Shown piece after piece: positions 2,682 through 49,711 of a stretch of DNA of 64,000 nucleotides. How positions within the stretch are numbered: the stretch's first letter is position 1; every line of letters starts with the position of its first letter. Under the pieces are notes generated by a model. That model was given only the letters and a program-made list of their open reading frames with translations, made no database searches and was not told the origin of the DNA. The translations under genes were made by a program, and so were the position numbers. This stretch comes from Lantana camara (taxonomy: Eukaryota > Streptophyta > Magnoliopsida > Lamiales > Verbenaceae), in assembly GCA_037501455.1 (NCBI GenBank), contig CM074858.1:38375001-38439000 (forward strand), read 5' to 3'.

Positions 2682-3068
2682 ATCTCTACCCCTCAAGCGG
2701 ACTTGGTCCCCAAGTCCACTCCTCGAGTTCCGGACTCTAAAACAAGCGACGAGAGAGCCCCGTCTCTCAAGTAAACAGTTAGAGAATCCCCATCGCTCAA
2801 CAAGCAACGAGAGAGCCCCATCTCTCAAATAAGCAATGAGAGACCCCGTCTCTCAACCAAGCAATGAGAGAACCTCGTCTCTCAACCAACACCGCCACAA
2901 CCCAGAAGAACAAATAGATAAACCCTCACACCAGCCATATAAGAAACAGGTAGGAAAAATAATAAATACCTTAGTTATTGGTCAAACAAAAGCAATTTAG
3001 CAAAAGACAAGGAGCCATATACGACAATAATAGAAAGGCATGATGCGCGTGCTATGCATGTTTAGGTG
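2682..3068 (-). mobile_element. J element, 3' end of internal region (non-autonomous)
   Basis: This lies upstream, in element sense, of the J LTR and begins with a polypurine-like tract (minus-strand GAGGGGTAGAGAT, 2682-2694). It carries five hairpin units of the GAGAGA-n-TCTCTC type between 2738 and 2893. No gag-pol similarity is seen. The D-type LTR interrupts it at 3069. The same arrangement, a hairpin array just upstream of the polypurine tract, occurs in B, H and E, which supports its being a non-autonomous element. Confidence 0.6.
2738..2893 (-). repeat. Hairpin array (GAGAGA/TCTCTC units) in J internal region
   Basis: Five units each contain a GAGAG arm, a 4-8 nt GC-rich loop such as GCCCCG or ACCCCG, and a CTCTC arm, often extended with flanking complementary bases (TGAGAGA/TCTCTCA). 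The units are spaced about 30 bp apart. They resemble the arrays at 17688-18035, 25832-25910, 49433-49512 and 52277-52353. Confidence 0.7.
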
Positions 3069-13886: not shown

Positions 13887-16800
13887 TGTAGCACCCCAAG
13901 CGGTGGGGCACCACACCCCCGCGCTATGACCCGACACGTGGTACGAAATGGAAAGTCCGCACACGCACCAAGTCACAGCGAACGGGTGACAAACGAAAAA
14001 AAAAACCAACCAAAGCTAGGCGGTACCAAAACCCTGTACAAGAAAAATAAGCAAAACCCGAATGCGGAAGCGATGCAAAATATGAACTAACAAAACTTTA
14101 ATCAACAAACGTAAGTAAACGGGTTCAACTAATTCCACGAACCTGTCCTAACCTGTCCCGAATTCAAACATACAACAAAGACGGGTTCAACTAATCTCAG
14201 CCCTGTCCTAACCTGTCCCGAAAATTCATGTAATCCAAGCATAAGTATCATCTTGTACAGAATATACTATATACATAATTTTCATAAATAAATCAGAACA
14301 AAATACTTAGCAAAATCAAACGGACCGACACAGACTCGACAGACCAGACTCAAAGCCGCCTAGCTCGAACTCCCACAACTGGTACCTGCAACTAAAACAT
14401 AGGTGGGGCGAGGGTCAGTCCACTGACTGAGCGAGGGGGCTGAACACACACCAACACATATATACGTATAGAACAAAGCACGGATCAAAAGAAAGATTAT
14501 GAACCGGGAATAGGGTTTTGCATACCAAAACCATTTTCAAAACAAACTTATACATATCTTATCAAATCAAACTTATACGTATCTTATCTTATTCAAACTT
14601 AACAAACTGAGCAAATTCATATTTTAATAATAGAGAAAGCTCCTATCCCGTTTCATAATCAACATAACAGATCATAAACATATACCCGGCGAGTACGGGT
14701 CTCCCACCTTACTTCCATATCGAATCATACGTATCAAATCAGAAAACAAACAAATATCATAAACAATCCAACCCCAACACCATGTAGTTCGGGGAGCAAA
14801 CCCTCACTACTCATACAGATACAAACACACACGGGGTAGCGAACCCACACTGTGCCTTCCCCGGTTATCCACCGAGGGCTCAAGATACTACGCCTTCCCA
14901 ACCTCCCTAGGTCGCACGTGAATATCTCAAATGAGAACGTGCACAGGGGTCATAACCGGCGACCCCATGGTCGTCCCGGGTCCCCCTTACCCACGTCTCG
15001 GGGCCCAACATATCAAAACAGAGCATATCAGAACAGATCATATCATAACTCGCTACATATCAAACTTATCATATCGAATCAAAATCATACTTACGTACCT
15101 TATCGGAGCATACCATACCTTGCAACTTAGCATATGCTATAAACGTACCTCTCCGTGTCATCCTAATCCGCAGCTGGTATGAAGACACACGGTTTGGAGC
15201 ATAGCCTCGTTGCAAAACATTTCAAGCTTACATATGCTCGTACATATACAGTTCAAAACCTTTAATCGTATGACAAATTCATAAACATATCATATAAACA
15301 CACATATCTATTATATAAATATAATAGAATAATCGCATGCAGGCTTGAAAACGAGCACAGAGGGTTGTAGGTCGTTGTAACTAAAACAAAATTCCTAAAA
15401 CCTCACCTTACACCGACGAAACGGAAAACCTGAGTCAAGAAGTCCCACTGGAACCCAAACAGCTGACAAACACTCCCTGGACAACTGAACACACACAGAA
15501 CACAAGACTCAGACTCCAAACACAACCACAAAGACGCACGGCCATGCTCACGAATACAAATGATGCAACATATAATACATATCTATTCAATCAAGTCATT
15601 CAGAGCATATTATAATTCATATTCCATATCAAAAGTTGCATACTTATAAAATTCATAACATTAATTACATAAAATAAAGTAGAACATTAAGAATTCAAAT
15701 CATATCATGCACCAAGTCTCACGAAATTAACATGAATTACATAACAATAAATATATAAATTACACAATGGCATATTTCACAATATAACAACAATTGGTAT
15801 ATTTGATCAATTTATTCAAATTAAATACAACGTATCTTTTCATAATTCATTTGTTATGTTTTATAAAATATCATAATCACTTTAATTTCTAAAATTACAC
15901 TAACATCCCCTCAAACAATAATTATTCTCAAATAGATGGCGTAAAACGAGACAAATAAATTCGATAAATCACGAATCAAATATTCATACATCATAGCATA
16001 CTTCCACGTATCATACAACTCATAATTTCAATTTATAGCACATACGGGATCAAATTGCACAATTAAAATCAATTAACGAATAAAATACAATAACTTCAAA
16101 AATTCATATAAAATCAACCGGACATCCGATTGACGAACGGGAAGTGGCGTTGGACTCACCACGACGAGAGGAACCTACTGTCCGAAAGTCGCCGGAATGC
16201 CGCCACCGCAACCGGACGAACAGCCAACGGCCGCCACCGGAATACCGCCTCCGGTGGTCGGAAAAATCCCCGGAAGGACAGAAACATGCGCCTCGGCCTA
16301 CTCAATAAAAACCCTCAACCAATTTCAGAAAATAGCAAACACGTGGGACTTCGTTAAAGAAAAACCGACCCAAATCCCAACGACGGAAACTGAAATTAAA
16401 TACAAACCGTAAAACGAAAATGAAATCCGAGCATACCGTTGGAAAGCTTGTAACGAGCCCTACGAAAGCCCCAAGTCAAACCGCCGGAAAAACCGCCGGA
16501 AAATCGGACCGCCGGTCCAGGCCCGGTCCGCCACCGGTCTGCCGCCGCCGGCCGGTTCTCTGACCGCCACCACCACGAGTAGATCGGACTCGACCTCAGG
16601 AACAACTTTTGTGAAGATGTCATCACCAAAACCGGCCGGAAAATGGCCGAACCGCCACTCCAAAGTCGCGCCGCTGCGTCATCGCCGGAACCACCACTTC
16701 CGCCGCGATTCGCTTGAAAAGGAGGCCGGAAATGGAACGGGAAGGTCCAAAAACGTAGGGTAGGGTGGTTGATGGCCGGCGAGGGTCGCCGGAACGCCGC

Positions 16801-17376
16801 CGGCGTGGAGGTGGCGCAATCCCGCCACCGTCGGACCTCCGCTGCTCCGCCGCTGGTCACTTTCAGGCCACGAAACTGGTACGGTTGTGACGGGCTCGTC
16901 GAGCTGATAAATTTCCACTATCAATTCGTCGAATTCCGTCGAGAAACGAGGGAGAACGGGCTAGTGCGTGAAAACGCACCTTCGAGTGTGTGTGAACAGT
17001 GAAAATCGCTGGAGAAGACGACGCTGGGCTGAGGTCTGATCTTTGGCACGCAAAACGAGGATCCGGGGTATATATCTCGGGTCCTCGTACGCAAAAACGA
17101 TCAAACGAACGAGCTAACGACATCCGAATTGGGCAAACTTAGAGTCTACGGACTCGTCTCGATGCCCCGGACGCGTTGAAGGGGTCAAAGAGGTCAAAAT
17201 CTCGACCGAACGAGAAGTGACCGGAAAACCCCTAAAAGAGAAAAAAAAAACAAACAAGCCCCTAAACTCTTAAAGAGTTCAAAATAGGGCCACGAAAAAT
17301 ATAAAATCACACAATTAAACACATTAAAAGGTTGAAACGTAGCGTACCGTACAAATTGGACGAGCGGGATGTCACA
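13887..17376 (-). repeat. E 3' LTR (3490 bp)
   Basis: In element sense it starts TGTGACATCCCGC at 17376 and ends GGGGTGCTACA at 13887. A TATA-like GATATATACC (minus strand, about 17066-17075) sits inside an imperfect palindrome. A GC-rich block with many CCGG/GCCGGN motifs occupies 16140-16830. A donor-like AAG|GTGAGGTTTT lies at 15401-15408 on the minus strand. The shared 3' module (CGCCTAGCT reversed) is at about 14355. The 154-codon minus-strand frame at 16396-16860 falls wholly in the GC-rich block and has no recognisable domain; I treat it as chance. Confidence 0.9.
17056..17087 (-). promoter_or_regulatory. Putative E LTR promoter: TATA inside imperfect palindrome
   Basis: The arms CGAGGATCC (17056-17064) and GGGTCCTCG (17079-17087) match at 8 of 9 positions and enclose TATATAT. 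On the minus strand a pyrimidine-rich leader follows. An identical copy lies in the other LTR at about 23078-23109. The assignment as promoter is inferred from position and TATA sequence only. Confidence 0.5.
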
Positions 17377-17390
17377 AACTCCCCTCCTTC
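17377..17390 (-). other. Polypurine tract of E
   Basis: Minus-strand GAAGGAGGGGAGTT directly adjoins the 3' LTR, the expected site for plus-strand priming. Confidence 0.8.
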
Positions 17391-19889
17391 AAAAGGACCT
17401 GTCCTCAGGTCCTATTACTGAGTCGTAAAGCTTCGAACTGGAATACTTCAATCCATCTCCTGAAATCGTGTAGAGTCATAGCCCTGGCTATGAAGTTTAC
17501 TCCCACTGTTTGCATCAACTCCCTGCAGAGTTCCGTAGTCACAGAGGTTTGTTCAAACAGTTGACCAATGGTCGCTTCAAACTTGTTCGATCCCCCACTA
17601 GGCCACTGCACCCAAGGCTCGAAATCGTCGCTTCCTCGTCGATTGCAAACCAACATCAGGCCACACGAAACTCAGCCACGACAAACAAGAGAGAATCCCA
17701 TCTCTCAGCACACAAGAGAGAGAGAGTCCCGTCTCCCGGCACATCAAAAGAGAGAACCCCGTCCCTCAGGCACAGAATTGAGAGAACCCCGTCTCTCAAC
17801 CTAAGTCTGGCAGACTTCCACATCTTCCAAACAACCTAGTTTGAGAAAATCCAGCATTTCTCAAACCCCTAAATTCGAGAGAATCCAGCATCTCTCAAAC
17901 ATCTAACTCCAAGAGAATCCAACATCTCTTGCTCACATAATTTAGAAAGAATCCAACATCTTTCTATCACAAAAATAGGGAGAATCCCACATCTCCCTAA
18001 CACGTAAATAGAGAGAGATCTCAACAACTCTCTAGCACACAAGTTCACTTACACAGCATTCAAACATACGCACATCAAAATAACACATGATGCAAAACAT
18101 GGAATGCATGTGTAGTGTACCTTTACCCGACTGATATCGGTGTCCCTAGAGTATCGACTCATCATCCATGCTCAACTCAGGGGGATATCGCGATGGAATC
18201 TCTGTAAAATAAAATCACAATATGCTTGTAGGTGCATGAAGGATTAGTGAGTAACCAAAGAAATTATAAGCACTGAAGCACGGATAGTTCACGCAAGCAG
18301 GTAATCCATATAGTTTACAAAAATTCACAACAACAACAATTTTAAAGTTATGAAAATTACAGCAGTTAGTCACGTTATTAAACTCGAGCAACATCAAACA
18401 TTACACATTGTCACATATGTCAAGCAAAAATATTTATAATTACTTATGAAATGCATGAGTGCAAATGCCATGGATGCTCAATGTACCGTTCACCGTAGTA
18501 GTGGAGTCGAGGTTGGCAATTTCTTTAACTTGAAAGGTTAATCAACTCCTTAACTGGCCATAGTTCCAACTTCCCGTTCAAACTTGCATTCTTTAGTATT
18601 CCTTCAGAGTCTCGGGTACTCAACTGATCTTGGATCGTCTCACTTGATTCTCGGAGTATAGTGATCCGCGTAATCTCTTGAAATCCTAATAGAATCCTCG
18701 GTAATCGGAAATCACCATTCTTTCATGGTAAAATCTCTCAAGACAATCGTGGAGAGATAAATGAAGAATCCTTACACAATCTTGCTTAGTACACCGTCGT
18801 CGTGACTGATATTCTTATCCTCAATATTTGGTGAAGTTGTTCTTCAATGACCTCGGCATAAAATTCCACAGCTAACACAACTTTCCCCTTTTTCATTTGT
18901 GTAGTGCAACTACTCTGGTAGGTGTCTTTATAACAGTAACCTGATTTCCTGCTTGGAATTCTCTGAATGGTACAATTGCCTTGATCTTTTCATTGTCACT
19001 TCACGCCATCCAGAGTTAGAAATTCTGGCTTTCTTATAAAACATGTACTCCCGAGCACCTCCAAATAATAAGTACCTACCCTGAGGCACCCTGATAGTTA
19101 AAGGATCTCTTATCTCTCTCATATTTGAGTATCTTCTTTTATCCACTCACTACCCTGACTGTGTTAGCTTGATCATACATCATCTGATTAACCCTTGTTC
19201 GAATCCCAATGTTGCTTCCACTAAAATCGATCCTCGTTGGAACAGGTAAGGAAGTCACCTAAATATAACCACAGAGCTAATGCATGTGGGGTTAGGGATG
19301 TGAATGGAGTGCACTCATATCCAGCAAAGAAAGCAGTCAAGCACGTAGAACAAATGTTCGAAACAATTATAATTTAATCCAATGCATGATGCACGTGCCA
19401 TGTATGCATAATACCCGTTTCCATAGCAGTAGCATTGATTCCTTGTTATAAATTCTTGTAGAGGTCCATTTGCTTTTCATCCAAATAGTCAGAAGATGAG
19501 AGTTTCAAATCCTCCTTCACGAATTTGTAGCAGTAGGAAGTGTTGTCTCGATCAACTTCAATTTTTGACATCAAGGCAACACCCTATAATTCACAAATGG
19601 ACCAAATATCTATGCATGTGGGTTAGTACGTGGGTATGTCAAGTAATGAAAGCAATTAAGAACACTTAAGTAATGCAGATGCAATACGTAATTTAATAAA
19701 ATTTAATCATAACAATAATAATTTTACAAAAATCATAATCATAGTGTGCACACAATCACATAAGCTCGGACAATTTCATACATACAAGTCGAAATTTCAC
19801 ATCAGACGAATGCAATGCACAAGTATTCCTATGCCGTACGACCTAAACTGACACGACACAACTCCAGAGCACCGGGTCTGAACCTGGTA
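17391..19889 (-). mobile_element. E internal region, non-coding
   Basis: About 2.5 kb of internal sequence carries no recognisable retroelement protein. In element sense it runs from the primer site (19901) to the polypurine tract (17390), with the hairpin array (17688-18035) near its 3' end. The longest minus-strand frame of note (18928-19146, 72 codons) has no family resemblance that I can see. AT-rich stretches around 18230-18420 and 19620-19800 are unremarkable. Confidence 0.8.
17688..18035 (-). repeat. Array of ten hairpins with variable stems and conserved loop (E internal)
   Basis: Ten inverted repeats are spaced about 30-60 bp apart. Plus-strand examples: GTTTGAGAAA/TTTCTCAAAC with loop ATCCAGCA (17839-17866), CAAGAGA/TCTCTTG with loop ATCCAACA (17910-17931), TAGAAAGA/TCTTTCTA with loop ATCCAACA (17943-17966), TAGGGAGA/TCTCCCTA with loop ATCCCACA (17976-17999), and TTGAGAGA/TCTCTCAA with loop ACCCCG (17778-17799). 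The stems differ in sequence but stay complementary, which argues for selection on structure. The element-sense loop is TGTTGGAT or a close variant. Confidence 0.9.
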
Positions 19890-19901
19890 GCTCTGATACC
19901 A
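19890..19901 (-). other. Primer-binding site of E (initiator Met tRNA type)
   Basis: The minus strand reads TGGTATCAGAGC, beginning seven bases inside the 5' LTR end (19909). It is the standard site for initiator methionine tRNA in plant LTR elements. Confidence 0.9.
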
Positions 19902-19908
19902 CTTAAGA

Positions 19909-22900
19909 TGTAGCACCCCAAGCGGTGGGGCACCACACCCCCGCGCTATGACCCGACACGTGGTACGAAATGGAAAGTCCGCACACGCACCAAGTCACAG
20001 CGAACGGGTGACACACGAAAAAAAAAACCAACCAAAGCTAGGCGGTACCAAAACCCTGTACAAGAAAAATAAGCAAAACCCGAATGCGGAAGCGATGCAA
20101 AATATGAACTAACAAAACTTTAATTAACAAACATAAGTAAACGGGTTCAACTAATTCCACGAACCTGTCCTAACCTGTCCCGAATTCAAACATACAACAA
20201 AGACGGGTTCAACTAATCTCAGCCCTGTCCTAACCTGTCCCGAAAATTCATGTAATCCAAGCATAAGTATCATCTTGTACAGAATATACTATATACATAA
20301 TTTTCATAAATAAATCAGAACAAAATACTTAGCAAAATCAAACGGACCGACACAGACTCGACAGACCAGACTCAAAGCCGCCTAGCTCGAACTCCCACAA
20401 CTGGTACCTACAACTAAAACATAGGTGGGGCGAGGGTCAGTCCACTGACTGAGCGAGGGGGCTGAACACACACCAACACATATATACGTATAGAACAAAG
20501 CACGGATCAAAAGAAAGATTATGAACCGGGAATAGGGTTTTGCATACCAAAACCATTTTCAAAACAAACTTATACATATCTTATCAAATCAAACTTATAC
20601 GTATCTTATCTTATTCAAACTTAACAAACTGAGCAAATTCATATTTTAATAATAGAGAAAGCTCCTATCCCGTTTCATAATCAACATAACAGATCATAAA
20701 CATATACCCGGCGAGTACGGGTCTCCCACCTTACTTCCATATCGAATCATACGTATCAAATCAGAAAACAAACAAATATCATAAACAATCCAACCCCAAC
20801 ACCATGTAGTTCGGGGAGCAAACCCTCACTACTCATACAGATACAAACACACACGGGGTAGCGAACCCACACTGTGCCTTCCCCGGTTATCCACCGAGGG
20901 CTCAAGATACTACGCCTTCCCAACCTCCCTAGGTCGCACGTGAATATCTCAAATGAGAACGTGCACAGGGGTCATAACCGGCGACCCCATGGTCGTCCCG
21001 GGTCCCCCTTACCCACGTCTCGGGGCCCAACATATCAAAACAGAGCATATCAGAACAGATCATATCATAACTCGCTACATATCAAACTTATCATATCGAA
21101 TCAAAATCATACTTACGTACCTTATCGGAGCATACCATACCTTGCAACTTAGCATATGCTATAAACGTACCTCTCCGTGTCATCCTAATCCGCAGCTGGT
21201 ATGAAGACACACGGTTTGGAGCATAGCCTCGTTGCAAAACATTTCAAGCTTACATATGCTCGTACATATACAGTTCAAAACCTTTAATCGTATGACAAAT
21301 TCATAAACATATCATATAAACACACATATCTATTATATAAATATAATAGAATAATCGCATGCAGGCTTGAAAACGAGCACAGAGGGTTGTAGGTCGTTGT
21401 AACTAAAACAAAATTCCTAAAACCTCACCTTACACCGACGAAACGGAAAACCTGAGTCAAGAAGTCCCACTGGAACCCAAACAGCTGACAAACACTCCCT
21501 GGACAACTGAACACACACAGAACACAAGACTCAGACTCCAAACACAACCACAAAGACGCACGGCCATGCTCACGAATACAAATGATGCAACATATAATAC
21601 ATATCTATTCAATCAAGTCATTCAGAGCATATTATAATTCATATTCCATATCAAAAGTTGCATACTTATAAAATTCATAACATTAATTACATAAAATAAA
21701 GTAGAACATTAAGAATTCAAATCATATCATGCACCAAGTCTCACGAAATTAACATGAATTACATAACAATAAATATATAAATTACACAATGGCATATTTC
21801 ACAATATAACAACAATTGGTATATTTGATCAATTTATTCAAATTAAATACAACGTATCTTTTCATAATTCATTTGTTATGTTTTATAAAATATCATAATC
21901 ACTTTAATTTCTAAAATTACACTAACATCCCCTCAAACAATAATTATTCTCAAATAGATGGCGTAAAACGAGACAAATAAATTCGATAAATCACGAATCA
22001 AATATTCATACATCATAGCATACTTCCACGTATCATACAACTCATAATTTCAATTTATAGCACATACGGGATCAAATTGCACAATTAAAATCAATTAACG
22101 AATAAAATACAATAACTTCAAAAATTCATATAAAATCAACCGGACATCCGATTGACGAACGGGAAGTGGCGTTGGACTCACCACGACGAGAGGAACCTAC
22201 TGTCCGAAAGTCGCCGGAATGCCGCCACCGCAACCGGACGAACAGCCAACGGCCGCCACCGGAATACCGCCTCCGGTGGTCGGAAAAATCCCCGGAAGGA
22301 CAGAAACATGCGCCTCGGCCTACTCAATAAAAACCCTCAACCAATTTCAGAAAATAGCAAACACGTGGGACTTCGTTAAAGAAAAACCGACCCAAATCCC
22401 AACGACGGAAACTGAAATTAAATACAAACCGTAAAACGAAAATGAAATCCGAGCATACCGTTGGAAAGCTTGTAACGAGCCCTACGAAAGCCCCAAGTCA
22501 AACCGCCGGAAAAACCGCCGGAAAATCGGACCGCCGGTCCAGGCCCGGTCCGCCACCGGTCTGCCGCCGCCGGCCGGTTCTCTGACCGCCACCACCACGA
22601 GTAGATCGGACTCGACCTCAGGAACAACTTTTGTGAAGATGTCATCACCAAAACCGGCCGGAAAATGGCCGAACCGCCACTCCAAAGTCGCGCCGCTGCG
22701 TCATCACCGGAACCACCACTTCCGCCGCGATTCGCTTGAAAAGGAGGCCGGAAATGGAACGGGAAGGTCCAAAAACGTAGGGTAGGGTGGTTGATGGCCG
22801 GCGAGGGTCGCCGGAACGCCGCCGGCGTGGAGGTGGCGCAATCCCGCCACCGTCGGACCTCCGCTGCTCCGCCGCTGGTCACTTTCAGGCCACGAAACTG

Positions 22901-23398
22901 GTACGGTTGTGACGGGCTCGTCGAGCTGATAAATTTCCACTATCAATTCGTCGAATTCCGTCGAGAAACGAGGGAGAACGGGCTAGTGCGTGAAAACGCA
23001 CCTTCGAGTGTGTGTGAACAGTGAAAATCGCTGGAGAAGACGACGCTGGGCTGAGGTCTGATCTTTGGCACGCAAAACGAGGATCCGGGGTATATATCTC
23101 GGGTCCTCGTACGCAAAAACGATCAAACGAACGAGCTAACGACATCCGAATTGGGCAAACTTAGAGTCTACGGACTCGTCTCGATGCCCCGGACGCGTTG
23201 AAGGGGTCAAAGAGGTCAAAATCTCGACCGAACGAGAAGTGACCGGAAAACCCCTAAAAGAGAAAAAAAAAACAAACAAGCCCCTAAACTCTTAAAGAGT
23301 TCAAAATAGGGCCACGAAAAATATAAAATCACACAATTAAACACATTAAAAGGTTGAAACGTAGCGTACCGTACAAATTGGACGAGCGGGATGTCACA
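19909..23398 (-). repeat. E 5' LTR (3490 bp)
   Basis: It is nearly identical to the LTR at 13887-17376 and has exactly the same length and the same internal features. The internal frames repeated in both LTRs (for example 22418-22882 minus) are copies of the same non-coding sequence. Confidence 0.92.
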
Positions 23399-23403
23399 CA
23401 CGA

Positions 23404-25662: not shown

Positions 25663-25831
25663 CGGGGAGAGACGGCCAAGGAACTAATTTAAGGAATCAA
25701 GTGTCAACCGAACTACTACAACGAAGAATTTCAATCCACGGTGAACGGTACACTTGAACATGCATATCACGTGCACCATGTATTTCATTATTGTTACCTT
25801 TAATCTCTTGTTAGTTGGTTTATTTTGTTAG

Positions 25832-25910
25832 TCAAGAGACGGGGTTCTCTTGATACATGTGCTAGAGACGGGGTTCTCTCATCGCTCGTTAGAGAGACGG
25901 GCCACTCTCA
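25832..25910 (+). repeat. Hairpin array of B internal region 1
   Basis: The first unit, TCAAGAGA/TCTCTTGA with loop CGGGGT (25832-25853), is perfect. The second (AGAGA/TCTCT, same loop, 25864-25879) and a decayed third follow. They lie about 200 bp upstream of the polypurine tract. Confidence 0.85.
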
Positions 25911-26110
25911 TTCCTATGTGACAACTTGTTCTAGTGAAAGGTTAGATTTCCTCGCGAGTGTTTAGAATCCTGGAAAGTTGACGGTCGTGATTTAACGACA
26001 TTGCAAGGAATCTCATGGATTTAAGACCTCTTTCGAACTAATCCCTGATGGGGACTGGCCAACCCGCGTGGGATGAACACGAAAGGGTGAATCCGAGGAT
26101 GGATTCTCTT

Positions 26111-35400: not shown

Positions 35401-36121
35401 TCGAACCAATTCGAGATGAAAGATCTTGGTGATGCGTCCTATATCCTTGGAATTAAAATCTATAGAGATAGATCTAGAAGGTTAATAGGACTATCACAGT
35501 TGATGTACATTGACAAAGTATTGAAGAGATTCAATATGGAGTCAGCAAAGGTTAAGAACCTTCCTATGAGTGTAGGAGCATGTCTTTCAAAGAAGATGTG
35601 TCCTAAGACTAACCTTGAGAAGGAGAGAATGACTCATACACCTTATGCATCAGCAATAGGTAGCATAATGTATGAAATGTTATGTACTCGACCGGATGTG
35701 GCTTATGCACTTAGTGTAACGAGTCGTTTCCAATCTGACCCTGGAGATGGTCACTGGGCTGCCGTGAAGAATATTCTTAAGTACTTGAAAAGTACTAAAG
35801 ATTTATTCTTAGTTTATGGAGGTCAGAAAGATCTTAATGTCGAAGGATACTGCGATGCAAGCTTTGCATCTGACTTAGATGATTTTAAGTCAATGTCAGG
35901 ATACATTTTCTGCCTAAACGACGGAGCAGTGAGTTGGAAGAGTTCCAAGCAAACAACCACTGCAGATTCGACCACTGAGGCCGAATACTTAGCTACAAAT
36001 GATGCAGCTGAGGAAGGTGTTTGGATTAGAAACTTCATTCAAGAGTTGAATGTTGTTCCTAGCATGAAAGACCCCATTACTGTGTTTTGTGACAACACTG
36101 GGGCGGTTGCTCGAGCAAGAG
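32413..36121 (+). pseudogene. Copia-1 gag-pol polyprotein, part 1 (nonsense codon, then split by gypsy element)
   Basis: The frame starts at an ATG after the leader and reads without a gap to an in-frame TAG at 35209-35211 (codon 933). It then continues in the same frame to the gypsy insertion at 36122. Order: a Gag domain with an N-terminal TGPNYSDW motif; zinc knuckle CFHC...C (codons 255-268); aspartic protease with LDTG (D296); integrase HHCC from H427 and catalytic D488, D551, E587 (35 residues between the last two); reverse transcriptase with YVDD (codons 975-978); start of RNase H (DASFASD, TEAEYLA). The stop falls where the family has glutamine after IYGLK, consistent with one C-to-T change. 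The start is chosen because the Gag domain begins at once. Function is lost through two nonsense codons and the insertion. A nuclear integrase and a cytoplasmic particle would be the roles of the intact protein. Confidence 0.93.
36117..36121. repeat. Target site duplication of the gypsy element (AAGAG, left copy)
   Basis: AAGAG at 36117-36121 recurs at 46238-46242. Both lie within the copia-1 coding sequence, which continues in frame across them. Confidence 0.95.
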
Positions 36122-38790
36122 TGTAACGCCCCGGTTTCCGGATGAACAGGTAAGCACGCCACGTGTGCGTTTTGGGCGTAGGTTATATTTTATTTCTTTA
36201 ATTTATAATATATTCTTACGTGGCATTCATATTTTTATAAAATTCAAGAAATATTATTTATATCAATTATATGATTCCATATCGTTCAAAATATTATTTC
36301 ATGGCACGAAAAATATTTCTTGCATGAAAACCATTACCGAGAGTGTTTTAAATTACCAAATTACCCTAGCCAAATATTTTTCAAAACTCTAGGGACTTAA
36401 TTGCATAATCTTTTAGGGGCATGATTGATCATTTCTCAAAACTTTATATACCTTATTGCATAACTTAGAGACTTCAAGGATCAATTGGCAAATTAGCATA
36501 TTTCACACTTTTCAAAAATGGGATGTATCGGTATAAGGCTTCCTTAAGCTTCCTTGAACAATTTCATCAAAAATATTTCCCAACTCATTCACTCTCTCTC
36601 TCGGTATCAAGAAGCAAGGAGAAGGAAGAGATTTTTCATTTCAATCATCAAGATTTCAAGAAGTGTTCCAAGGAATTAGGAGATCATCATCATCATCATC
36701 CACTTTCTTCATTTCTTTCATTTTCAAGGTTGGTTTGCATGGAATTGATGATTTTGATCACGTTTGAATAGGTTAGGGTTTGAGCTTGATGTGCTAGATG
36801 AATTAGGTGTTGTGCCAAGCATGATTCAATAATCATATCATGAATTATTGCATGATTTCTAGCTTGAAATTCTTGGATATTTGGCAAAAATGATCAAGTT
36901 TGATCATGAGCTTGGAGCATGAATATATGATGATATTTCATGGTTTTAGGTGTCTAAGTGTTATATTATCATGTATTGAAGTTGTTTACATCATAATTCC
37001 AGAGATTATAGCATTTTGGGATCAAAAATGAAATTTTGTTGCTTTGTTGCTTCTTCCCCGAGAGCATACTCTGTTTTGCTCTGTTTTCCCAGTTGCAGAA
37101 CTGGGAACGACCGTTCCCAGCCTCAAGGCATTGCGGGAACGGGCGTTCCCTTCTTTCAAACTGAAACCGCGCGGCCGACTATGGGAACGGCCGTTCCCAT
37201 TTTGGCCTTGGAGCCGGAAGGGCCGTTCCCGGCTAGGTGCGTTTTAAAAATGGAAAAACGTTGGAGCGCTTTGGGGTTGCATGGGAACGACCGTTCCCAT
37301 TTTACAAAGGGAACCGGAACGGCCGTTCCCACCTGAATTGCAGTGTAAAATTCACTGCATAAAATTACGAAATTAGCCCCTCGATCCAACGACTTCTTTG
37401 ACCCCGAATTGCTATAATATGTGCTAATATGATGTAAAACGAAAAGTTATCATACCACATTGCATTTTCATGGTCGTCTCGACACATTTCCGCCGTTCGT
37501 CATATTTTGGTCATTTTAGGTCATGTCTCACGAATGTACATCGTATTTGCACAGGTCACGAGGGCGTGGACGGGGAGCAAGCTCCTTAGAACGCTTATTT
37601 ATTATATTTTGCAAGAAAGGTGAGGTTTTGTTTTGGTAAAACGAACCCTATAACCCTTATGTGCTAGTTTTCGGCCAAAAACGTATTATACTTATAAATG
37701 ATTTCAAACCATGAACATTTCCAAGCAAGAAAGTATTGGTTATCATGAATTCAAGCATGTTTGGCGAGTACATGATTGCACGTGGGCCCGAGGGTAATTC
37801 TTGAGCCAACCGGGAAAGCAAGGGCTGACAGGTAACTCCTGAATTATCCTCACATTGTTGGGATCACCCCCGAAGCCACTAGGAGATTAGTGGTGGAAGG
37901 AGTTCCGTGTCTAGAGGGTCATGTCCTCTACACACACCATGTCGTGGATAGTCGAGCCTTGCAAACTCGCTATCACCCGGAGGAAGAAGGAGACTGGGGA
38001 TTAATCCGGCATGTCGGGTTATCCTCGGGTTATTGCATGATTTCAAGCATGAACTTGTTTATATGAGCACTAATTAAATTGCATGATCACGTATTTATCA
38101 AGCAAGCAAGCATGATCACGTATTGTTCACGATTGGGAGTTCGGTTGGAGATTGCCCTTGCTCGCCGGGGCCACATGTTCATGACATTGACAAGCATGAT
38201 TAAAATAAATGTGTTATAATGATTGGTTGTAATCTCGGGCAAAGATTAACTTCTTGAATTACATATCTATTTTATGCTAAAGTCTTCACCCGAGGCTACA
38301 ACTTGCATGTGACGTGTGTTATATATAATTATTGCCCCTCACTCAGTCTTCGGTAGACTGATACTTCACTTTTCAGGTACCTTTGAGCGTGGTCGTGCTA
38401 GGCGGGCGTTGTTCGAGTCTTTTGCATCTTCACGAGTCTAGCACCTTTCATGTATAATATTTTGAGACATTTCATGTTATGCTCGTTATTGTCACGTTTT
38501 GAACACTTACTGATGTATATTATCCAGATATGATAATGTATTGGTAGTTAATGGGTACCTATATGTATCTATGTAATAAATATGGTACCTATATATATGA
38601 ATGACTTTATTGCTTCCGTTTTTCTATTCATGTTTGCTTTGATTATGTTGGGGAGAGTGTCCCGCCTAGCTCGTCATTTTTATTGTCACCCGTTCGCTGT
38701 GGTCTTGGTTTATGTATGAACTGTCCATTTCATACGTGGATCGAGGCTATAGTGCGGGGGATGTGGCGCCTTGGGGTTTAGGGTGCTACA
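36122..38790 (+). repeat. Gypsy element 5' LTR (2669 bp)
   Basis: It starts TGTAACGCCCCGG and ends GGGTGCTACA. It has a TATA-like GGTATAAGG (36530), a leader with donor-like CAAG|GTTGGT (about 36728), a dyad cluster (37104-37333), an acceptor-like TTGCACAG (37556), a donor-like AAAG|GTGAGGTTTT (37620) and an acceptor-like TTTTCAG (38377). Frames of 63-106 codons repeated in both LTRs are not genes. Confidence 0.95.
37104..37333. repeat. GC-rich dyad cluster (gypsy 5' LTR)
   Basis: Six units occur. Examples are CTGGGAACGACCGTTCCCAG, ATGGGAACGGCCGTTCCCAT and GCCGGAAGGGCCGTTCCCGGC. The outer base pairs differ between units but stay complementary. The same cluster lies at 44550-44781 in the 3' LTR. 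Confidence 0.92.
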
Positions 38791-38798
38791 TCTACAGG

Positions 38799-38810
38799 TG
38801 GTATCAGAGC
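38799..38810 (+). other. Primer-binding site of the gypsy element
   Basis: TGGTATCAGAGC lies eight bases after the 5' LTR and is of the initiator Met tRNA type. Confidence 0.93.
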
Positions 38811-39045
38811 CCGGTTGCAAAACCGAGGTTCTCGAGTCGTGTCAAGCCAGTCTAGGTCGCACGGCATAGGATTATGTGGTATTTGGGAGTCTGCATTGGG
38901 TTGACTTACCTGAATTATTTATTTCTTTGCATTACTTGAGCTACTTGATCTTCCTTGAACGTGTGCTATTTGATACTATGGAAATTGTGTGCACACATTT
39001 GCATTTATTGATCAAGCCACGCATGTTTAGTGATCTAATTTCAGG

Positions 39046-40850
39046 ATGGAGCACGACAGATATTTTAGTGATCGATCCTCGAGGCACAGGCATCATCACC
39101 GCCGACACCATCGCCGCGAGAGATCACCCCTCATCCGCCTGCTCAGGCACAGCCCCAGGATTTTATGAATGCGGTAGTGGGGCTAATTGATCAGAGATTA
39201 CAGGAAAGGGTTCCTCCACCACCACCACCAGCGCAGGTAGCACCTCCGGAGAACCCCATTTCGGCTGTTTTTCGAGAGTTTCAGAATCAGCGTCCCCCGA
39301 AGTTCTATAAGGGAGACGATATGCAGGCAGAGATGTGGCTAAAAGAGATTGAAAGGATTTGGCAGTTTATTCCTTGCGACAGTCAGGAGAAGGCTCGTTG
39401 CACCCTCACTCTTATTCAGGGCGAGGCCTACTCCTGGTGGGAGAGTACTCAGATTGTTCTGGAGGCAGCCGGGACCGAGATTACTTGGGAGGTCTTTGTA
39501 CGGGAGTTCAGAAACAAGTACATTCCTCCAGCTTCCCGTACCCGCAGGTTGAGGGAGTTTACAGAATTAAAGCAGGGAGGCAGATCTGTGGGTCAGTATA
39601 TTGCCGAGTTCGAGAGACTTTCTCGCTATGCACCCAACATAGCGAACGATGACTTTCACAAGGCGATGCAGTTCGTTCAGGGGTTGAGACCAGACATTCA
39701 GGATGCACTGAAAGCGACTAATACCAGCACCTGGGCGAAAGCTACAGCAAAAGCCCTAAAGGTTGAAGATTCTGATAGTGCGAGGAAAGCTACTGCACGG
39801 ACCGGACAGGCTTCAGGCTCGAGATCAGGCCAGGGTTCGAGCTCAGGGAAAAGGCCGATGATTTACCCTACACCTCCAGCTCAGAGGGACACCGGGAAGA
39901 AACCTAAGTACACCGGGCCATTTCCGAGAGGTCCAAGAGCTCCCGCACCACCCCAGCCACCTCAGAGACCGAGATGTAGCTGGTGTGGACTTACTACGCA
40001 CACCTATGATAACTGCAGGCGCCGGTTGGGCCTATGTTTGATCTGTGGGAGTAACGAGCACCTGGTTGATGGTTGCCCGGATCGTCAGGATCAGCCACCT
40101 GCAGGACCGAGGCCATTGGTGAGAGCTCGGGCTTATGCACTCGCGGGAGAAGGGCAGGAGGCTGATATTGACCCCGCTGCGGTAGTTGAAGGTATTATTT
40201 GCATTCATGGCACGAACATCCATACATTATTTGATCCAGGAGCTACACACTCCTTTCTTGCGCATTCTATTGCTATTACTTTGTCTTTGCCTGCTATGTG
40301 TACTTCTGTGCGCTATATAGTTAGTACTCCTTTCGGTAGTAGGCGAGAGACGGATCAGGTTTACAGGGATGTTCCAGTTGTAATTGAAGGCCGGGAGTTT
40401 CTGACAGATTTTATTGTTATGCCGATGGAGAGATACGGGGCTATTCTGGGGATGGATTGGCTTTACAGACATTGTGCTACTGTGGATTGTCGGGCTAAGA
40501 AGGTTCAGTTGGGTTCAGAGGTTGTTACGGGCTGTACTTCGAAGACCGTGCCCCTACTTTCGTTTTCAGAGGCTCAGAGATTAGTCAGAGACGGGGCTAC
40601 AGGATTCATTGCTTACATTCTGAACAAGCCCAAAGATCAGGTGAAATTAGAGGACACAGAAGTGGTAAAGGAATTCCCCGAGGTATTCCCAGAGAAATTG
40701 GATTCCTTGCCTCCTGAGCGGGAGATTGAGTTCGTGATTGATCTTTTTTCGAATGCTGAGCCGTATTCAAAGACTCCGTACCGGATGGCTCCAGCCGAAT
40801 TAAAGGAACTAAAAGTTCAGCTTGAGGCTTTATTGGAAGTTGGTACATTC
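39046..40850 (+). pseudogene. Gypsy gag, protease and start of reverse transcriptase (frameshifted)
   Basis: An uninterrupted frame runs from an ATG at 39165, but homologous-looking sequence in another frame starts earlier (ATG 39046, Arg/His-rich), so a frameshift near 39120 is likely. From 39165: Retrotrans_gag-type domain (residues about 30-190), basic Ser/Gly-rich linker, zinc knuckles including CLICGSNEHLVDGC (about 290-304), and the protease region at 357-364, where the expected D-S/T-G triplet reads D357-P358-G359. The substitution would be expected to impair the protease. The start of reverse transcriptase follows, then the frame is lost at about 40841-40845, where one base appears missing. 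The out-of-frame tail ends at 40892. The intact product would form the particle and mature the polyprotein. Confidence 0.9.
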
Positions 40851-43042
40851 GGCCAAGTTTTTCGCCGTGGGGAGCACCGGTGTTGTTTGTAAAGAAAAAG
40901 GACGGGACTCTAAGAATGTGCATCGATTACAGGGAGTTGAACAGGATGACTATCAAGAACAAGTATCCCCTCCCACATATCGAGGAGTTGTTCGATATAC
41001 TCCAGGGTTCTAAGGTGTATTCGAAATTGGATTTAAGACAGGGATACTATCAGCTGCGAATCCGAGCAGAGGACATTCCAAAGACAGGATTCAATACTCG
41101 GTACGGGCACTATGAGTTCGTGGTTATGCCGTTTGGATCGACTAATGCCCCTGCAGCTTTTATGGATATGATGCACCGGATATTCAGGCCTTTCCTCGAT
41201 AAGTTCGTGGTGATTTTCATTGATGATATTCTGGTTTTCTCGAAATCAGTTGAGGAGCACGCAAGACATCTCAGACTTGTTCTTCAGACTCTAAAGGAGC
41301 ATCAGTTGTTTGCTAAGTTCAGCAAGTGTGAATTTTGGATTGATCGGGTTTCATTCTTGGGGCATGTGATTTCAGGAAAAGGGTTGGAAGTCGATCCCTC
41401 AAAAATCGAGGCCGTGCTTAAGTGGGAGAAACCAAAGAATGCCTCGGAGATTAGAAGCTTCTTGGGATTGGCCGGTTATTACAGAAGGTTTGTTCAGGAT
41501 TTCTCCAAGATTGCGGCACCGTTAACCCGGTTGACTAAGAAGGATGTTAAGCTTGTCTGGGACGAGAAGTGTGATCAAAGCTTTAATTTTCTGAAAGAAA
41601 AGTTAGTCTCAGATCCGGTGTTAACTTTACCCGAGGGTTCAGAGGGATATGCAGTGTATACAGATGCTTCTAAAGAAGGCTTAGGTTGTGTTTTGACTCA
41701 GAAAGGAAAAGTGATCGCTTATGCTTCTCGGAAGCTAAAGGAATATGAAAGGAATTATCCAACACACGACCTAGAGCTTGCAGCCGTGATCTTTGCTCTC
41801 GGGAAATGGAGACATTATCTTTACGGGACTTCCTTTGAGATTTTTACCGACCATAAGAGCCTCCAGTATTTATTCACACAGAAAGATTTGAATATGAGGC
41901 AACGGCGTTGGATGGAAAAGTTGGAAGATTATGATTGTACAATTAAGTACCATCCCGGGAAAGCCAATGTGGTCGCCGATGCACTTAGCAGGAAGGCGAG
42001 TGTATCGAGTTTGGAAATAAAGGACAGTGAGGAAGTTGCCCTGATTGTATTACAGGCTCGGGTTTCTAATATCACAGTTCAGCCGGAATTAAGGTATCAG
42101 CTATTTGAGGCCCAGAATAAGGATCCGGAAGTGCAGAGGCTTGTAAGTAAAGCTAAGGATGACCCGGAGAGTCCGTTTGGGTTTGATGAGACCGGGTTGC
42201 TTCGGTTTAAGAACAGAGTAGTAGTACCTGAAGAGTTGAGACGGGTCCTATTCGAAGAAGCTCACAAGTCAGCCTACTCGATCCACCCAGGAGGAAATAA
42301 AATGTATAAGGATTTGAAACAATATTATTGGTGGAACGGAATGAAGAGAGACGTGGCAGAGTATGTGAAACATTGCCTGACTTGTCAGAAAGTGAAAGCT
42401 GAGCACCAAAAACCCGCGGGATTTCTACAACCGTTACCTATTCCCGAGTGGAAGTGGGAACAAGTAACGATGGACTTTGTTTCTGGATTACCGAAGGTTA
42501 AAGGTGGGTTTGATGGAATTTGGGTAATCGTGGATAGATTTACAAAGTCTGCTCACTTCCTACCGGTTCGGATGTCCTATAAGATCCCGAAGTTGGCTGA
42601 AATCTATAACAGAGAGATCATTCGACTTCATGGTATTCTGGTGAGCATAGTTTCAGATCGAGACCCGAGGTTTACTTCTAAGTTGTGGCAGGAATTACAA
42701 GCTGTCTTGGGAACGAAACTTAAGTTCAGTACAGCATTTCACCCTCAAACAGACGGTCAAACTGAAAGAGTAATCAGGTATTTGGAAGATCTTCTTCGGG
42801 CTTGCGCGATGGATTTTCAGAACTCGTGGGCAGAACAGCTTCCCTTGATCGAGTTTGCTTATAATAACAGCTTTCAGGCTTCGATCGGAATGGCTCCTTA
42901 CGAGTTACTTTACGGAAGAAAGTGCCGATCTCCGTTGTTCTTCGACTTGGAAGAATGGAAATGGTCAAAACAGGAAGGAGTAAAGAAAGGTGAAAGATTC
43001 GAAAGGCCTTCCAAAGTCGTCCAGGCTATGATTGAAAAATGA
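40846..43042 (+). pseudogene. Gypsy reverse transcriptase, RNase H and integrase (frame 2)
   Basis: Downstream of the frameshift the pol sequence continues in a new frame, with the first ATG at 40880. Numbered from that ATG: reverse transcriptase with FIDD (D115, D116); RNase H with the TDAS motif (D262) and a DHKSLQYL motif; integrase zinc site from H462 (HH then CC) and catalytic core D532, D593, E629 with 35 residues between the last two. Every catalytic residue I can check is present, so this part decayed by frame loss only. It ends at a TGA (43040-43042) created by a second frame change just before the integrase C-terminal domain. Confidence 0.92.
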
Positions 43043-43530
43043 GAGCCGCGCAAGATAGGCAGAAGAGCTACGCCGATAAGCGCCGAAGAGATCTAGAATT
43101 TGAAGTGGGTGACCGGGTATTCTTGAAGGTGTCGCCAAGGAAAGGTTTCACCCGGATCGGGAAAGGAGGAAAACTTAATCCTCGCTATTTAGGTCCGTTC
43201 GAGATTTTGGAAAGAATAGGCGAGGTAGCCTATCGACTGGACCTACCACCGAGTCTTACGGGGATTCACAACGTGTTTCATGTTTCACAATTAAGGAAAT
43301 ATTACCCCGATGAGACTACGATTCTCCCCGTGGAAGAAGTTGAGCTGGAACCGAATTTGACGTTTGTTCAGAGGCCGGTTAAGATTATGGATCGGAAATT
43401 TCAGGAGTTGAGAAACCGGAGAATTCCCATGGTTAAGGTTTTGTGGAGAAGCGATAAAACCGAGGAAGCTACTTGGGAAACAGAGGATAAAATGAAACGG
43501 TTCCACCCGGAGTTATTCGAGCAAGACTAG
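43039..43530 (+). pseudogene. Gypsy integrase C-terminal region with chromodomain-like tail (frame 3)
   Basis: The third frame begins at the second break (ATG at 43039 overlapping the stop by 4 bases). It carries the integrase C-terminal GPF/Y-type region (NPRYLGPFEIL, AYRLDLP, HNVFHVSQLRKY) and a chromodomain-like tail (IPMVKVLWRS, EEATWETED). The family's usual sequence between the two frames is shortened, suggesting a small deletion at about 43030-43040. In chromoviruses this tail is thought to direct integration to heterochromatin, which fits the surroundings. The stop at 43528-43530 lies 25 bases before the polypurine tract. Confidence 0.9.
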
Positions 43531-43554
43531 AGAATCTGGGGACCAGATTCTTCT

Positions 43555-43567
43555 AAGGGGGGGAGAG
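43555..43567 (+). other. Polypurine tract of the gypsy element
   Basis: AAGGGGGGGAGAG ends one base before the 3' LTR. Confidence 0.92.
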
Positions 43568-43568
43568 T

Positions 43569-46237
43569 TATAACGCCCCGGTTTCCGGATGAACAGGTAA
43601 GCACGCCACGTGTGCGTTTTGGGCGTAGGTTATATTTTATTTCTTTAATTTATAATATATTCTTACGTGGCATTCATATTTTTATAAAATTCAAGAAACA
43701 TTATTTATATCAATTATATGATTCCATATCATTCAAAATATTATTTCATGGCACGAAAAATATTTCTTGCATGAAAACCATTACCGAGAGTGTTTTAAAT
43801 TACCAAATTGCCCTAGCCAAATATTTTTCAAAACTCTAGGGACTTAATTGCATAATCTTTTAGGGGCATGATTGATCATTTCTCAAAACTTTATATACCT
43901 TATTGCATAACTTAGAGACTTCAAGGATCAATTGGCAAATTAGCATATTTCACACTTTTCAAAAATGGGATGTATCGGTATAAGGCTTCCTTAAGCTTCC
44001 TTGAACAATTTCATCAAAAATATTTCCCAACTCATTCACTCTCTCTCTCGGTATCAAGAAGCAAGGAGAAGGAAGAGATTTTTCATTTCAATCATCAAGA
44101 TTTCAAGAAGTGTTCCAAGGAATTAGGAGATCATCATCATCATCATCCACTTTCTTCATTTCTTTCATTTTCAAGGTTGGTTTGCATGGAATTGATGATT
44201 TTGATCACGTTTGAATAGGTTAGGGTTTGAGCTTGATGTGCTAGATGAATTAGGTGTTGTGCCAAGCATGATTCAATAATCATATCATGAATTATTGCAT
44301 GATTTCTAGCTTGAAATTCTTGGATATTTGGCAAAAATGATCAAGTTTGATCATGAGCTTGGAGCATGAATATATGATGATATTTCATGGTTTTAGGTGT
44401 CTAAGTGTTATATTATCATGTATTGAAGTTGTTTACATCATAATTCCAGAGATTATAGCATTTTGGGATCAAAAATGAAATTTTGTTGCTTTGTTGCTTC
44501 TTCCCCCGAGAGCATACTCTGTTTTGCTCCGTTTTCCCAGTTGCAGAACTGGGAACGACCGTTCCCAGCCTCAAGGCATTACGGGAACGGGCGTTCCCTT
44601 CTTTCAAACTGAAACCGCGCGGCCGACTATGGGAACGGCCGTTCCCATTTTGGCCTTGGAGCCGGAAGGGCCGTTCCCGGCTAGGCGCATTTTAAAAATG
44701 GAAAAACGTTGGCGCGCTTTGGGGTTGCATGGGAACGACCGTTCCCATTTTACAAAGGGAACCGGAACGGCCGTTCCCACCTGAATTGCAGTGTAAAATT
44801 CACTGCATAAAATTACGAAATTAGCCCCTCGATCCAACGACTTCTTTGACCCCGAATTGCTATAATATGTGCTAATATGATGTGAAACGAAAAGTTATCA
44901 TACCACATTGCATTTTCATGGTCGTCTCGACACATTTCCGCCGTTCGTCATATTTTGGTCATTTTAGGTCATGTCTCACGAATGTACATCGTATTTGCAC
45001 AGGTTACGAGGGCGTGGACGGGGAGCAAGCTCCTTAGAACGCTTATTTATTATATTTTGCAAGAAAGGTGAGGTTTTGTTTTGGTAAAACGAACCCTATA
45101 ACCCTTATGTGCTAGTTTTCGGCCAAAAACGTATTATACTTATAAATGATTTCAAACCATGAACATTTCCAAGCAAGAAAGTATTGGTTATCATGAATTC
45201 AAGCATGTTTGGCGAGTACATGATTGCACGTGGGCCCGAGGGTAATTCTTGAGCCAACCGGGAAAGCAAGGGCTGATGGGTAACTCCTGAATTATCCTCA
45301 CATTGTTGGGATCACCCCCGAAGCCACTAGGAGATTAGTGGTGGAAGGAGTTCCGTGTCTAGAGGGTCATGTCCTCTACACACACCATGTCGTGGATAGT
45401 CGAGCCTTGCAAACTCGCTATCACCCGGAGGAAGAAGGAGACTGGGGATTAATCCGGCATGTCGGGTTATCCTCGGGTTATTGCATGATTTCAAGCATGA
45501 ACTTGTTTATATGAGCACTAATTAAATTGCATGATCACGTATTTATCAAGCAAGCAAGCATGATCACGTATTGTTCACGATTGGGAGTTCGGTTGGAGAT
45601 TACCCTTGCTCGCCGGGGCCACATGTTCATGACATTGACAAGCATGATTAAAATAAATGTGTTATAATGATTGGTTGTAATCTCGGGCAAAGATTAACTT
45701 CTTGAATTACATATCTATTTTATGCTAAAGTCTTCACCCGAGGCTACAACTTGCATGTGACGTGTGTTATATATAATTATTGCCCCTCACTCAGTCTTCG
45801 GTAGACTGATACTTCACTTTTCAGGTACCTTTGAGCGTGGTCGTGCTAGGCGGGCGTTGTTCGAGTCTTTTGCATCTTCACGAGTCTAGCACCTTTCATG
45901 TATAATATTTTGAGACATTTCATGTTATGCTCGTTATTGTCACGTTTTGAACACTTACTGATGTATATTATCCAGATATGATAATGTATTGGTAGTTAAT
46001 GGGTACCTATATGTATCTATGTAATAAATATGGTACTATATATATGAATGACTTTATTGCTTCCGTTTTTCTATTCATGTTTGCTTTGATTATGTTGGGG
46101 AGAGTGTCCCGCCTAGCTCATCATTTTTATTGTCACCCGTTCGCTGTGGTCTTGGTTTATGTATGAACTGTCCATTTCATACGTGGATCGAGGCTATAGT
46201 GCGGGGGATGTGGCGCCTTGGGGTTTAGGGTGCTACA
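43569..46237 (+). repeat. Gypsy element 3' LTR (2669 bp)
   Basis: It begins TATAACGCCCCGG, a G-to-A change from the canonical TG of the 5' LTR, and ends GGGTGCTACA. It has the same internal features as the 5' LTR, including a dyad cluster (44550-44781). It is followed by the AAGAG duplication (46238-46242). Confidence 0.94.
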
Positions 46238-48985: not shown

Positions 48986-49432
48986 CCGGTTGCAAAACCG
49001 AGGTTCTCGTGTCGTGTCATGTCGAGTCTAGGTCATACGGCGTAGGAAGTATTTGGTAACTTGGGTATTGCATTCATTCCTGTCATTAATTGCTCATTAC
49101 TTGAACTTATGTGCCGTGAAATTTATGTAAATAACGTGTCTACGTGAATCTTGTGAAATTAATTGTTATATTTGGCGTTCGGAATTGTTTCTAAATGTGA
49201 CACGTGCGTTGACATCTTAACCGGCATGCACAATTTTGTGATTCTTGTTAGTAAATATTCACTCCGGACTTCATGGCCAAGGAACTAATTTAAGGAATCA
49301 AGTGTCAACCAAACTACTACAACGAAGAATTTCAATCCACGGCGAACGGTACACTTGAACATGCATATCACGTGCACCATGTATTTCATTATTGTTACCT
49401 TTAATCTCTTGTTAGTTGGTTTATTTTATTAG

Positions 49433-49512
49433 TCAAGAGACGGGGTTCTCTTGATACTTGTGCTAGAGACGGGGTTCTCTCATCGTTCGTTAGAGAGACG
49501 GGGCACTCTTAT
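49433..49512 (+). repeat. Hairpin array of B internal region 2
   Basis: The perfect unit TCAAGAGA/TCTCTTGA with loop CGGGGT (49433-49454) is followed by two shorter units, as in copy 1. Confidence 0.85.
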
Positions 49513-49711
49513 TCCTATGTGACAACTTGTTCTAGTGAAAGGTTAGATTTCCTCACCAATGTTTAGAATCCCGGAAAGTTGAGGGTCGTGATTTAACGGC
49601 ATTGCAAGGAATCTCGTGGATTGAAGACCTCTTTCGAACTAATCCCTGACGGGGACTATCCAACCCGCGTGGGATGAACACAAAAGGGTGAATCCGAGGA
49701 CGGATTCTCTT

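Follow-up and report, generated by a model that had tools for sequence, protein, structure and literature searches.

How LTR retrotransposons that make no protein have their RNA selected by the proteins of other elements is an open question. For two non-autonomous kinds, LARDs and TRIMs, a conserved RNA structure is stated in general terms in an extract of PMC7215508. Repeats at the 3′ end are described for elements that do code for proteins: in Sireviruses, cis-elements are repeated in a cluster before the 3′ LTR, with multiple PPTs (extract of PMC2829016), and Retand elements carry tandem repeats between pol and the 3′ LTR (extract of PMC11963269). In RSV, the packaging signal lies in the 5′ UTR and its stem-loops are bound by the zinc fingers of NC (extract of PMC5035971). 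A study in wheat considered that without experimental data it is hard to tell which autonomous family mobilises a non-autonomous one; its listed criteria for a partner were a shared primer site, LTR ends and promoter, and no internal RNA element (extract of PMC9744471). Here we describe a stretch of 64,000 nucleotides from a plant genome (the window, in which elements are designated by letters), where a non-autonomous element, E, carries upstream of its 3′ LTR a tandem array of RNA hairpins.

As an LTR retrotransposon, element E is complete; it inserted recently and has no detectable coding sequence (Table 1). Its LTRs of about 3.49 kb each enclose an internal region of about 2.53 kb. The primer site, which we take to be of the initiator-Met type, and the PPT adjoining the LTR start both place the sense of E on the minus strand. 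An earlier note on this DNA had stated that E moved recently, and this is confirmed by the LTR pair, with 5 differences in 3492 bases compared, and by the 5-bp target-site duplication. At a general rate of 1.3e-8 substitutions per site and year, the insertion would be some 55,000 years old. The statement that E has no coding sequence also holds as far as tested: tblastn with the gag-pol of the chromovirus C over the 64-kb window matched C only and gave nothing in E, a search that a very different gag-pol would escape, and in Pfam no family came near the cut-off for seven ORFs of E (best E-value 0.051). An ORF of 83 aa between the array and the PPT (17405-17656, minus strand) gave no homologue by a word-filter search and no family, and is probably not a gene. 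A reading of the array as a coding repeat was discarded, the ORFs tried having yielded no homologue and no family. Because the ends are complete (LTRs, primer site, PPT, target-site duplication) while no gag-pol, Pfam family or ORF homologue was found, E is classed by its structure as a non-autonomous, LARD-like element.

In RNA order the array runs from 18033 to 17689 and ends about 300 bases upstream of the PPT; its units are spaced by about 30-36 bases. A mechanical scan (stem of at least 6, loop of 4-10, Watson-Crick pairs only) found 8 non-overlapping hairpins at 17688-18035; 1000 dinucleotide shuffles gave 0.5 on average and never more than 4, which rejects a chance origin. Five of these hairpins (17839-17999) have 8-base loops, two have 6-base loops and one a 10-base loop, and the count rises to 11 units once wobble pairs and imperfect units are included. 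The scan thus recovers the consecutive inverted repeats, perfect or nearly so, that had been reported there, and the five stems named at the time are present. Three points of that description have to be revised. The 8-base loop given as ATCCAGCA was a plus-strand reading; because the sense of E is the minus strand, the loops read UGCUGGAU, UGUUGGAU, UGUGGGAU, CGGGGU and the like. The loop is not invariant: it has 10 bases in E1 (UUGUUGAGAU), 8 bases in E2 to E7 (UGUGGGAU, UGUUGGAU, UGUUGGAU, UGCUGGAU, UGCUGGAU and UGUGGAAG, respectively) and 6 bases in E8 to E11 (CGGGGU, CGGGGU, CGGGAC and UGGGAU), with a GG-purine core common to E2-E11 and missing from E1. Finally, the stems are not unrelated in sequence, almost every one being a form of GAGAGA/TCTCTC; purines dominate the 5′ arms, the outer pairs vary and those adjacent to the loop are nearly constant. 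The units are therefore homologous repeats whose arms have diverged in step.

Table 1. Positions of the features described in the text (window coordinates unless prefixed by the label of another locus)
Feature	Position	Strand	Remarks
Element E	13887..23398	-	LTR pair and target-site duplication
3′ LTR of E	13887-17376	-	
Internal region of E	17377-19908	-	
5′ LTR of E	19909-23398	-	
Target-site duplication of E	13882-13886 and 23399-23403		5 bp, CACGA
Primer binding site of E	19890..19901	-	TGGTATCAGAGC
Hairpin array of E	17689..18033	-	11 tandem units; hairpin scan, wobble and imperfect units counted
Stem E1	18012-18033	-	
Stem E2	17976-17999	-	
Stem E3	17943-17966	-	
Stem E4	17910-17931	-	
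Stem E5	17873-17900	-	
Stem E6	17838-17867	-	
Stem E7	17805-17832	-	one mismatch
Stem E8	17776-17801	-	
Stem E9	17750-17767	-	
Stem E10	17720-17737	-	
Stem E11	17689-17706	-	
PPT-proximal hairpin of E	17394..17413	-	AGGACCTG-AGGA-CAGGTCCT, then PPT and LTR start 17376
Other PPT-proximal hairpins in the window	2699-2717 (-), 26089-26106 (+), 49690-49707 (+), 52050-52069 (-), 43530-43552 (+)		
Conserved box of E	18440..18504	-	ACGGTGAACGGTACA...CAT
Further CATGCAT-type copies in E	18086-18109 and 19385-19409		
Box positions	25742 (+), 49345 (+), 18492 (-), 55512 (-), 3039-3060 (-), L109:8103 (-), L113:5062 (+)		
Array of element A	2745..2890	-	5 units
Array of element B1	25831..25915	+	3 units
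Array of element B2	49432..49516	+	3 units
Array of element F	52270..52360	-	3 units
Chromovirus C	36118..46237	+	autonomous type, candidate helper; gag-pol 39165-43530, three frames in this copy

Several known kinds of structure were considered for the array. Rfam gave no match at the gathering threshold in the window and none up to an E-value of 5 in 17377-18130, so that no known RNA family was recognised. Pairing as G-quadruplexes through GGGG loops is not general, because the loops of E2-E7 have only short G runs. Dimerisation through kissing loops looks unlikely, because no 6-base palindrome was seen by eye in the loops of the 47 units that are compared below.

The array is present in E as first reported and is not peculiar to it, homologues being carried by elements A, B1, B2, F, H, X and N. 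A covariance model built on 21 units of the window, with those of B2 left out of the training, gave 13 matches up to an E-value of 1 in the window, all of them inside the arrays of E, A, B1, B2 and F. Two further stretches of 40 kb were sampled, of which one lies next to the window and the other on a different chromosome. Outside the training set the model matched the arrays of H (7 units, best E-value 4e-9), X (12 units, 2e-7) and N (6 units, 1e-8). The window and the two sampled stretches, 144 kb together, thus hold 8 arrays of 3 to 12 units, each 20 to 350 bases upstream of a PPT. X, which is related to E (78% identity in 701 columns), has one unit more (a 29-base insertion). The units B1.2 and B2.2 have 5 inner pairs only. 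No match to the gag-pol of C was found in E, X, B, F and N, nor in the visible part of A, which is split by an insertion. H has a damaged gag, with the middle part missing, one stop and two zinc knuckles kept; at L109:7640-8860 (minus strand) this gag remnant is directly followed by the conserved box (see below) and the array. A search of IMG/VR with a pattern made of one unit and GAGA returned 37 stretches, none with two array-type hairpins; this negative result is weak because the filter detects only 4 of the 11 units of E.

The B elements, whose internal region is about 0.8 kb, stand in tandem (LTR-internal-LTR-internal-LTR, 24533-51781). Matches to their array recur every 3.4-3.5 kb or so on three chromosomes of the genome (C7:64049785-64096980, C9:63993807-64008136 and C6:22070699-22077863), and similar tandem arrays have been reported for Cassandra (extract of PMC7215508). 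A copia element (LTRs 28213-30158 and 46460-48404) has its gag-pol (32413-36126) interrupted by C, and both are nested inside a B LTR. The window also contains 84-base repeats at 53714-53932 that hold the palindrome GACACGGCCGTGTC.

Pairing was evaluated by comparison between units. Forty-seven units from seven groups were placed by hand, keeping E1, E7, X1, X5 and X7 and leaving out the three of B2 as near-duplicates; MAFFT misplaced the arms of the units with 8-base loops, and its alignments were not used for the counts. In this set pairing holds in 84.3% of the cells for the inner 8 pairs. Changes on both sides that still pair were found in 33 cells and at all 8 inner pairs, against a shuffle mean of 13.4 cells, and none of 2000 shuffles reached 33; when the partners were slid by 1-3 columns, there were 5-18 both-sided cells, and 42-67% were paired. 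A second, independent count on 21 units (E1 and three B2 units left out) found such changes at 6 of the 8 pairs and in 12 cells, with 0 of 500 shuffles, the shuffle statistics of both counts taking no account of the relatedness of the units. An identical change from G-C to A-U at pair 6 in E4, B1, H7 and N2 suggests a repeated origin. Mismatches also occur, A-C at pair 6 in F2, H2 and N5, and A-A at pair 1 in B3, F3 and N3, for which an 8-base loop is the better reading. At pairs 1-6, wobbles and A-C mismatches number 6 and 7 overall, 6 and 2 in E and X, and 0 and 5 in the other groups, so that E and X alone give support for the folding strand. Folding energy does not tell the strand, because each strand folds better than its 100 shuffles (z −4.1 for the minus, sense strand and −7.9 for the plus, antisense strand).

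Copies of E were compared with the window as reference. The 39 other copies are all those fetched of 40 places that were scored among 3498 candidates, the fortieth being the window copy itself, and spacers were counted only within the array. Changes affected 87 of 6630 stem cells (1.3%), 110 of 3198 loop cells (3.4%) and 270 of 3705 spacer cells (7.3%), and 32 of 169 columns were variable in the stems versus 40 of 98 in the spacers (Fisher p 0.0002). The earlier note had held that uncompensated arm changes among the copies would speak against a selected fold. Such changes exist: of the 86 changed pair-cells 21 break the pair, and 65 still pair, 64 of them by a one-sided and 1 by a double change. 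Compensation within E is thus mostly by wobble, the double changes being seen between units and groups. Stem variants shared by at least two copies keep the pair in 7 of 9 cases and singletons in 8 of 23 (p 0.049), and each of the seven pair-keeping shared variants replaces, on the sense strand, G-U by A-U or G-C, or the reverse. Diversity among the copies is.030 and.034 in the first 200 bases of the array and.061 in the next 100, compared with.028 in the leader at the primer site,.022 at the PPT and.066 to.19 in the remaining regions; the low values of the array are biased because the copies were chosen by it.

X was met by sampling beside the window and not by similarity of its array. Between E and X, 16 of 168 stem positions (9.5%), 12 of 80 loop positions (15%), 20 of 95 spacer positions (21%) and 42 of 153 flank positions are changed (stem against spacer, p 0.014). 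Nine of the 14 changed pairs without a gap are paired; 5 are unpaired, 2 of which are already so in E. For B, 22 rows were used (the two window copies and 20 of 38 places elsewhere), and diversity was.074 in stems,.058 in loops and.150 in spacers. Its seven shared stem variants (3 G-U, 3 A-C and 1 other) keep the pair in 3 cases and its singletons in 1 of 14, so that the evidence for pairing within B is weak and this test does not support a selected fold there. Apart from B, these comparisons argue for the selection on the fold that had been suggested at the outset: arms covary between units, stems are the slowest class both among the E copies and between E and X, and shared variants of E mostly remain paired. 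The array of E is very probably a selected RNA fold. A plain tandem repeat without selection on pairing is disfavoured by the covariation between units and by the rates of stems, loops and spacers in the E copies and X.

Two other motifs accompany the array. A hairpin with an AGGA or GGA loop and a stem that differs by group stands directly before the PPT in all ten 3′ ends looked at, namely those of E, A, B1, B2, F, H (L109), X (L110), N (L113), a gag-only element (L115) and the coding element C. Upstream of the arrays of B1, B2, E, H and N lies a box, ACGGTGAACGGTAC and then CAT-rich sequence; in E the full box is some 400 bases upstream of the array. The box of F has the form GGACGGTACAC and is separated from the array by a later insertion, and in A the second half of the box was seen. 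The motif, ACGGTGAACGGTACA and then a CATGCAT..CACGTGCA.CATG-like sequence, is partly palindromic and splice-donor-like, its GGTAC resembling a 5′ splice site.

The best helper candidate in the window is the chromovirus C, with domain matches to gag, protease, RT, RNase H, integrase and chromodomain, and with two CCHC knuckles seen by eye in the translation of its Gag. Its family is large: of 22,196 candidate places 150 were scored, and many of these have open frames of about 1500 aa. Its 5′ leader recurs in B and F (about 85%) and in E (77%). No relative of its pol was found in IMG/VR. C contains no array-type hairpin in its internal region of 4778 bp, and no covariance-model match. The gag-only element (L115:7294-9131, plus strand), a short element of LTR type with one stop in its gag frame, no pol, and a PPT with hairpin, likewise has no array in 1838 bp and no covariance-model match. 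Beside the window lies a third coding element, which is interrupted and has its 3′ end outside the part seen; that part has two scattered loose-filter matches. Thus neither of the two coding elements seen to the 3′ end carries an array. Arrays were found in elements in which no pol was detected and in neither of these two, a suggestive distribution which, with 8 arrays and 2 array-less elements, is not a statistical one. The idea that E borrows another element's machinery by having copied the signal of its helper is not supported by these data: C shows no array, so the array was not copied from this candidate, and the RNA of C itself must be packaged without it.

We propose that the array in E RNA may act as a multivalent docking site, in which each hairpin would offer an RNA-binding protein much the same G-rich loop. 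As partner we consider most likely the Gag of an autonomous chromovirus such as C, through its zinc-knuckle (NC) part. RNAs unable to recruit a Gag made on their own RNA could in this way be packaged in trans, and the docking array would make up, in trans, for an element that does not make Gag. This function is one that we infer from sequence features, and we give the whole statement, a selected fold together with multivalent Gag docking for packaging in trans, a probability of about 0.4. The two CCHC knuckles in the Gag of C, the leader common to C, B, F and E and the size of the C family would be in line with it, as would the position before the PPT that all eight arrays share and the lack of an array in the two coding elements seen to the 3′ end. 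As expected of a packaging signal, the fold is kept by compensatory change between units, among E copies and between E and X, weakly so within B. The signal would also be expected in the RNA of the element that supplies Gag, and there, if C is taken to be the helper, no array was found. This absence, the small number of elements (8 arrays, 2 array-less coding elements), the weak evidence for pairing in B, the support for the folding strand in E and X only and a 3′ position unlike that of usual retroviral packaging signals all speak against docking.

By its place before the PPT, an element for RNA export or stability fits nearly as well and is a close rival, although somewhat unlikely in our estimate; host factors would bring the RNA, unspliced and untranslated, into the cytoplasm or prevent its decay. 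Some retroviruses have transport or stability elements at the 3′ end, and here all eight arrays precede the PPT and the 3′ LTR, sit in elements without long reading frames and repeat similar loops on varying stems. Coding elements, however, would be expected to need such an element too, yet C and the gag-only element lack the array, and we know of no host partner for these loops. It is improbable that the array is a neutral tandem repeat whose units were multiplied by slippage and whose arms were matched by templated repair or by template switching in reverse transcription. The units are indeed homologous tandem repeats, X differs from E by a whole unit, and the copies of B keep pairing no better than expected by eye; templated correction can also yield both-sided changes without selection. 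Such a process does not account for stems being the slowest and spacers the fastest class inside one array, among E copies and between E and X, for loops that are also more conserved than spacers, or for G-U intermediates that persist in many copies of E.

Purine-rich arms with GGGG close to the PPT could point to an aid to reverse transcription, either as extra plus-strand primer sites or in strand transfer, comparable to the PPT copies of Sireviruses, of which there are on average four upstream of the 3′ LTR (extract of PMC2829016). We regard this as very improbable: the purine run differs from the terminal PPT and is interrupted where the loop begins, by C or U, the G runs in the loops of E2-E7 are short, and the paired arms would be left unexplained. 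Least probable of all is a role as origin or target of small RNAs of the host, or as a feature acting at the DNA level; it would suit the folding of both strands beyond their shuffles, but Dicer-like substrates usually have longer stems than these 6-10 pairs and a conserved loop core would not be expected.

Returning to docking of Gag, a broader proposal can be made, which we consider rather unlikely in its entirety. The box (ACGGTGAACGGTACA...CATGCAT), the array and the PPT-proximal hairpin may form a portable 3′ module that makes an RNA without gag-pol mobile and replaces the advantage of having its own Gag. Selection would keep this module in otherwise unrelated non-autonomous families, and the length of the array would set their competitiveness for the shared machinery. 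Compact and fixed in place, with a common loop core and with stems whose changes are compensated, such an RNA module would be a concrete and testable candidate, and any plant genome can be scored for it.

LARDs are the nearest known kind for E. They have in common LTRs of several kb, an internal region without coding sequence and a mobility assumed to occur in trans; they differ in that a repeated hairpin array is not mentioned in the extract of PMC7215508, and in that the array bearers described here range from B, with its short internal region, to H with its gag remnants. TRIMs have very short LTRs and little internal sequence, which does not apply to E given the sizes of its LTRs and internal region. 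The gag-only element and the damaged H resemble elements of the TR-GAG type in having gag and no pol; the two differ from each other, the former being without array and the latter having one. With the 3′ linker of Sireviruses, E shares repeated cis-elements upstream of the 3′ LTR. Sireviruses, however, are copia elements with gag-pol, their repeats are identical PPT octamers, and an inverted repeat occurs once, across the PPT/LTR junction, whereas the array bearers have Gypsy-type ends, hairpins with varying arms and units that do not repeat the PPT. Retand elements also have tandem repeats upstream of the 3′ LTR, but they are non-chromovirus elements with coding regions, and no fold is described in the extract of PMC11963269. 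Retroviral packaging signals resemble the arrays in being made of stem-loops; binding by NC zinc fingers is shown for RSV and only proposed for the array, and these signals are usually found near the 5′ end, while the arrays stand near the 3′ end with 3 to 12 copies of the hairpin. No such array was found among the literature matches listed, which comprise titles and the starts of abstracts and mostly leave out subscription journals. In the extracts cited here, the repeats before the 3′ LTR are copies of the PPT or tandem repeats, without a described fold.
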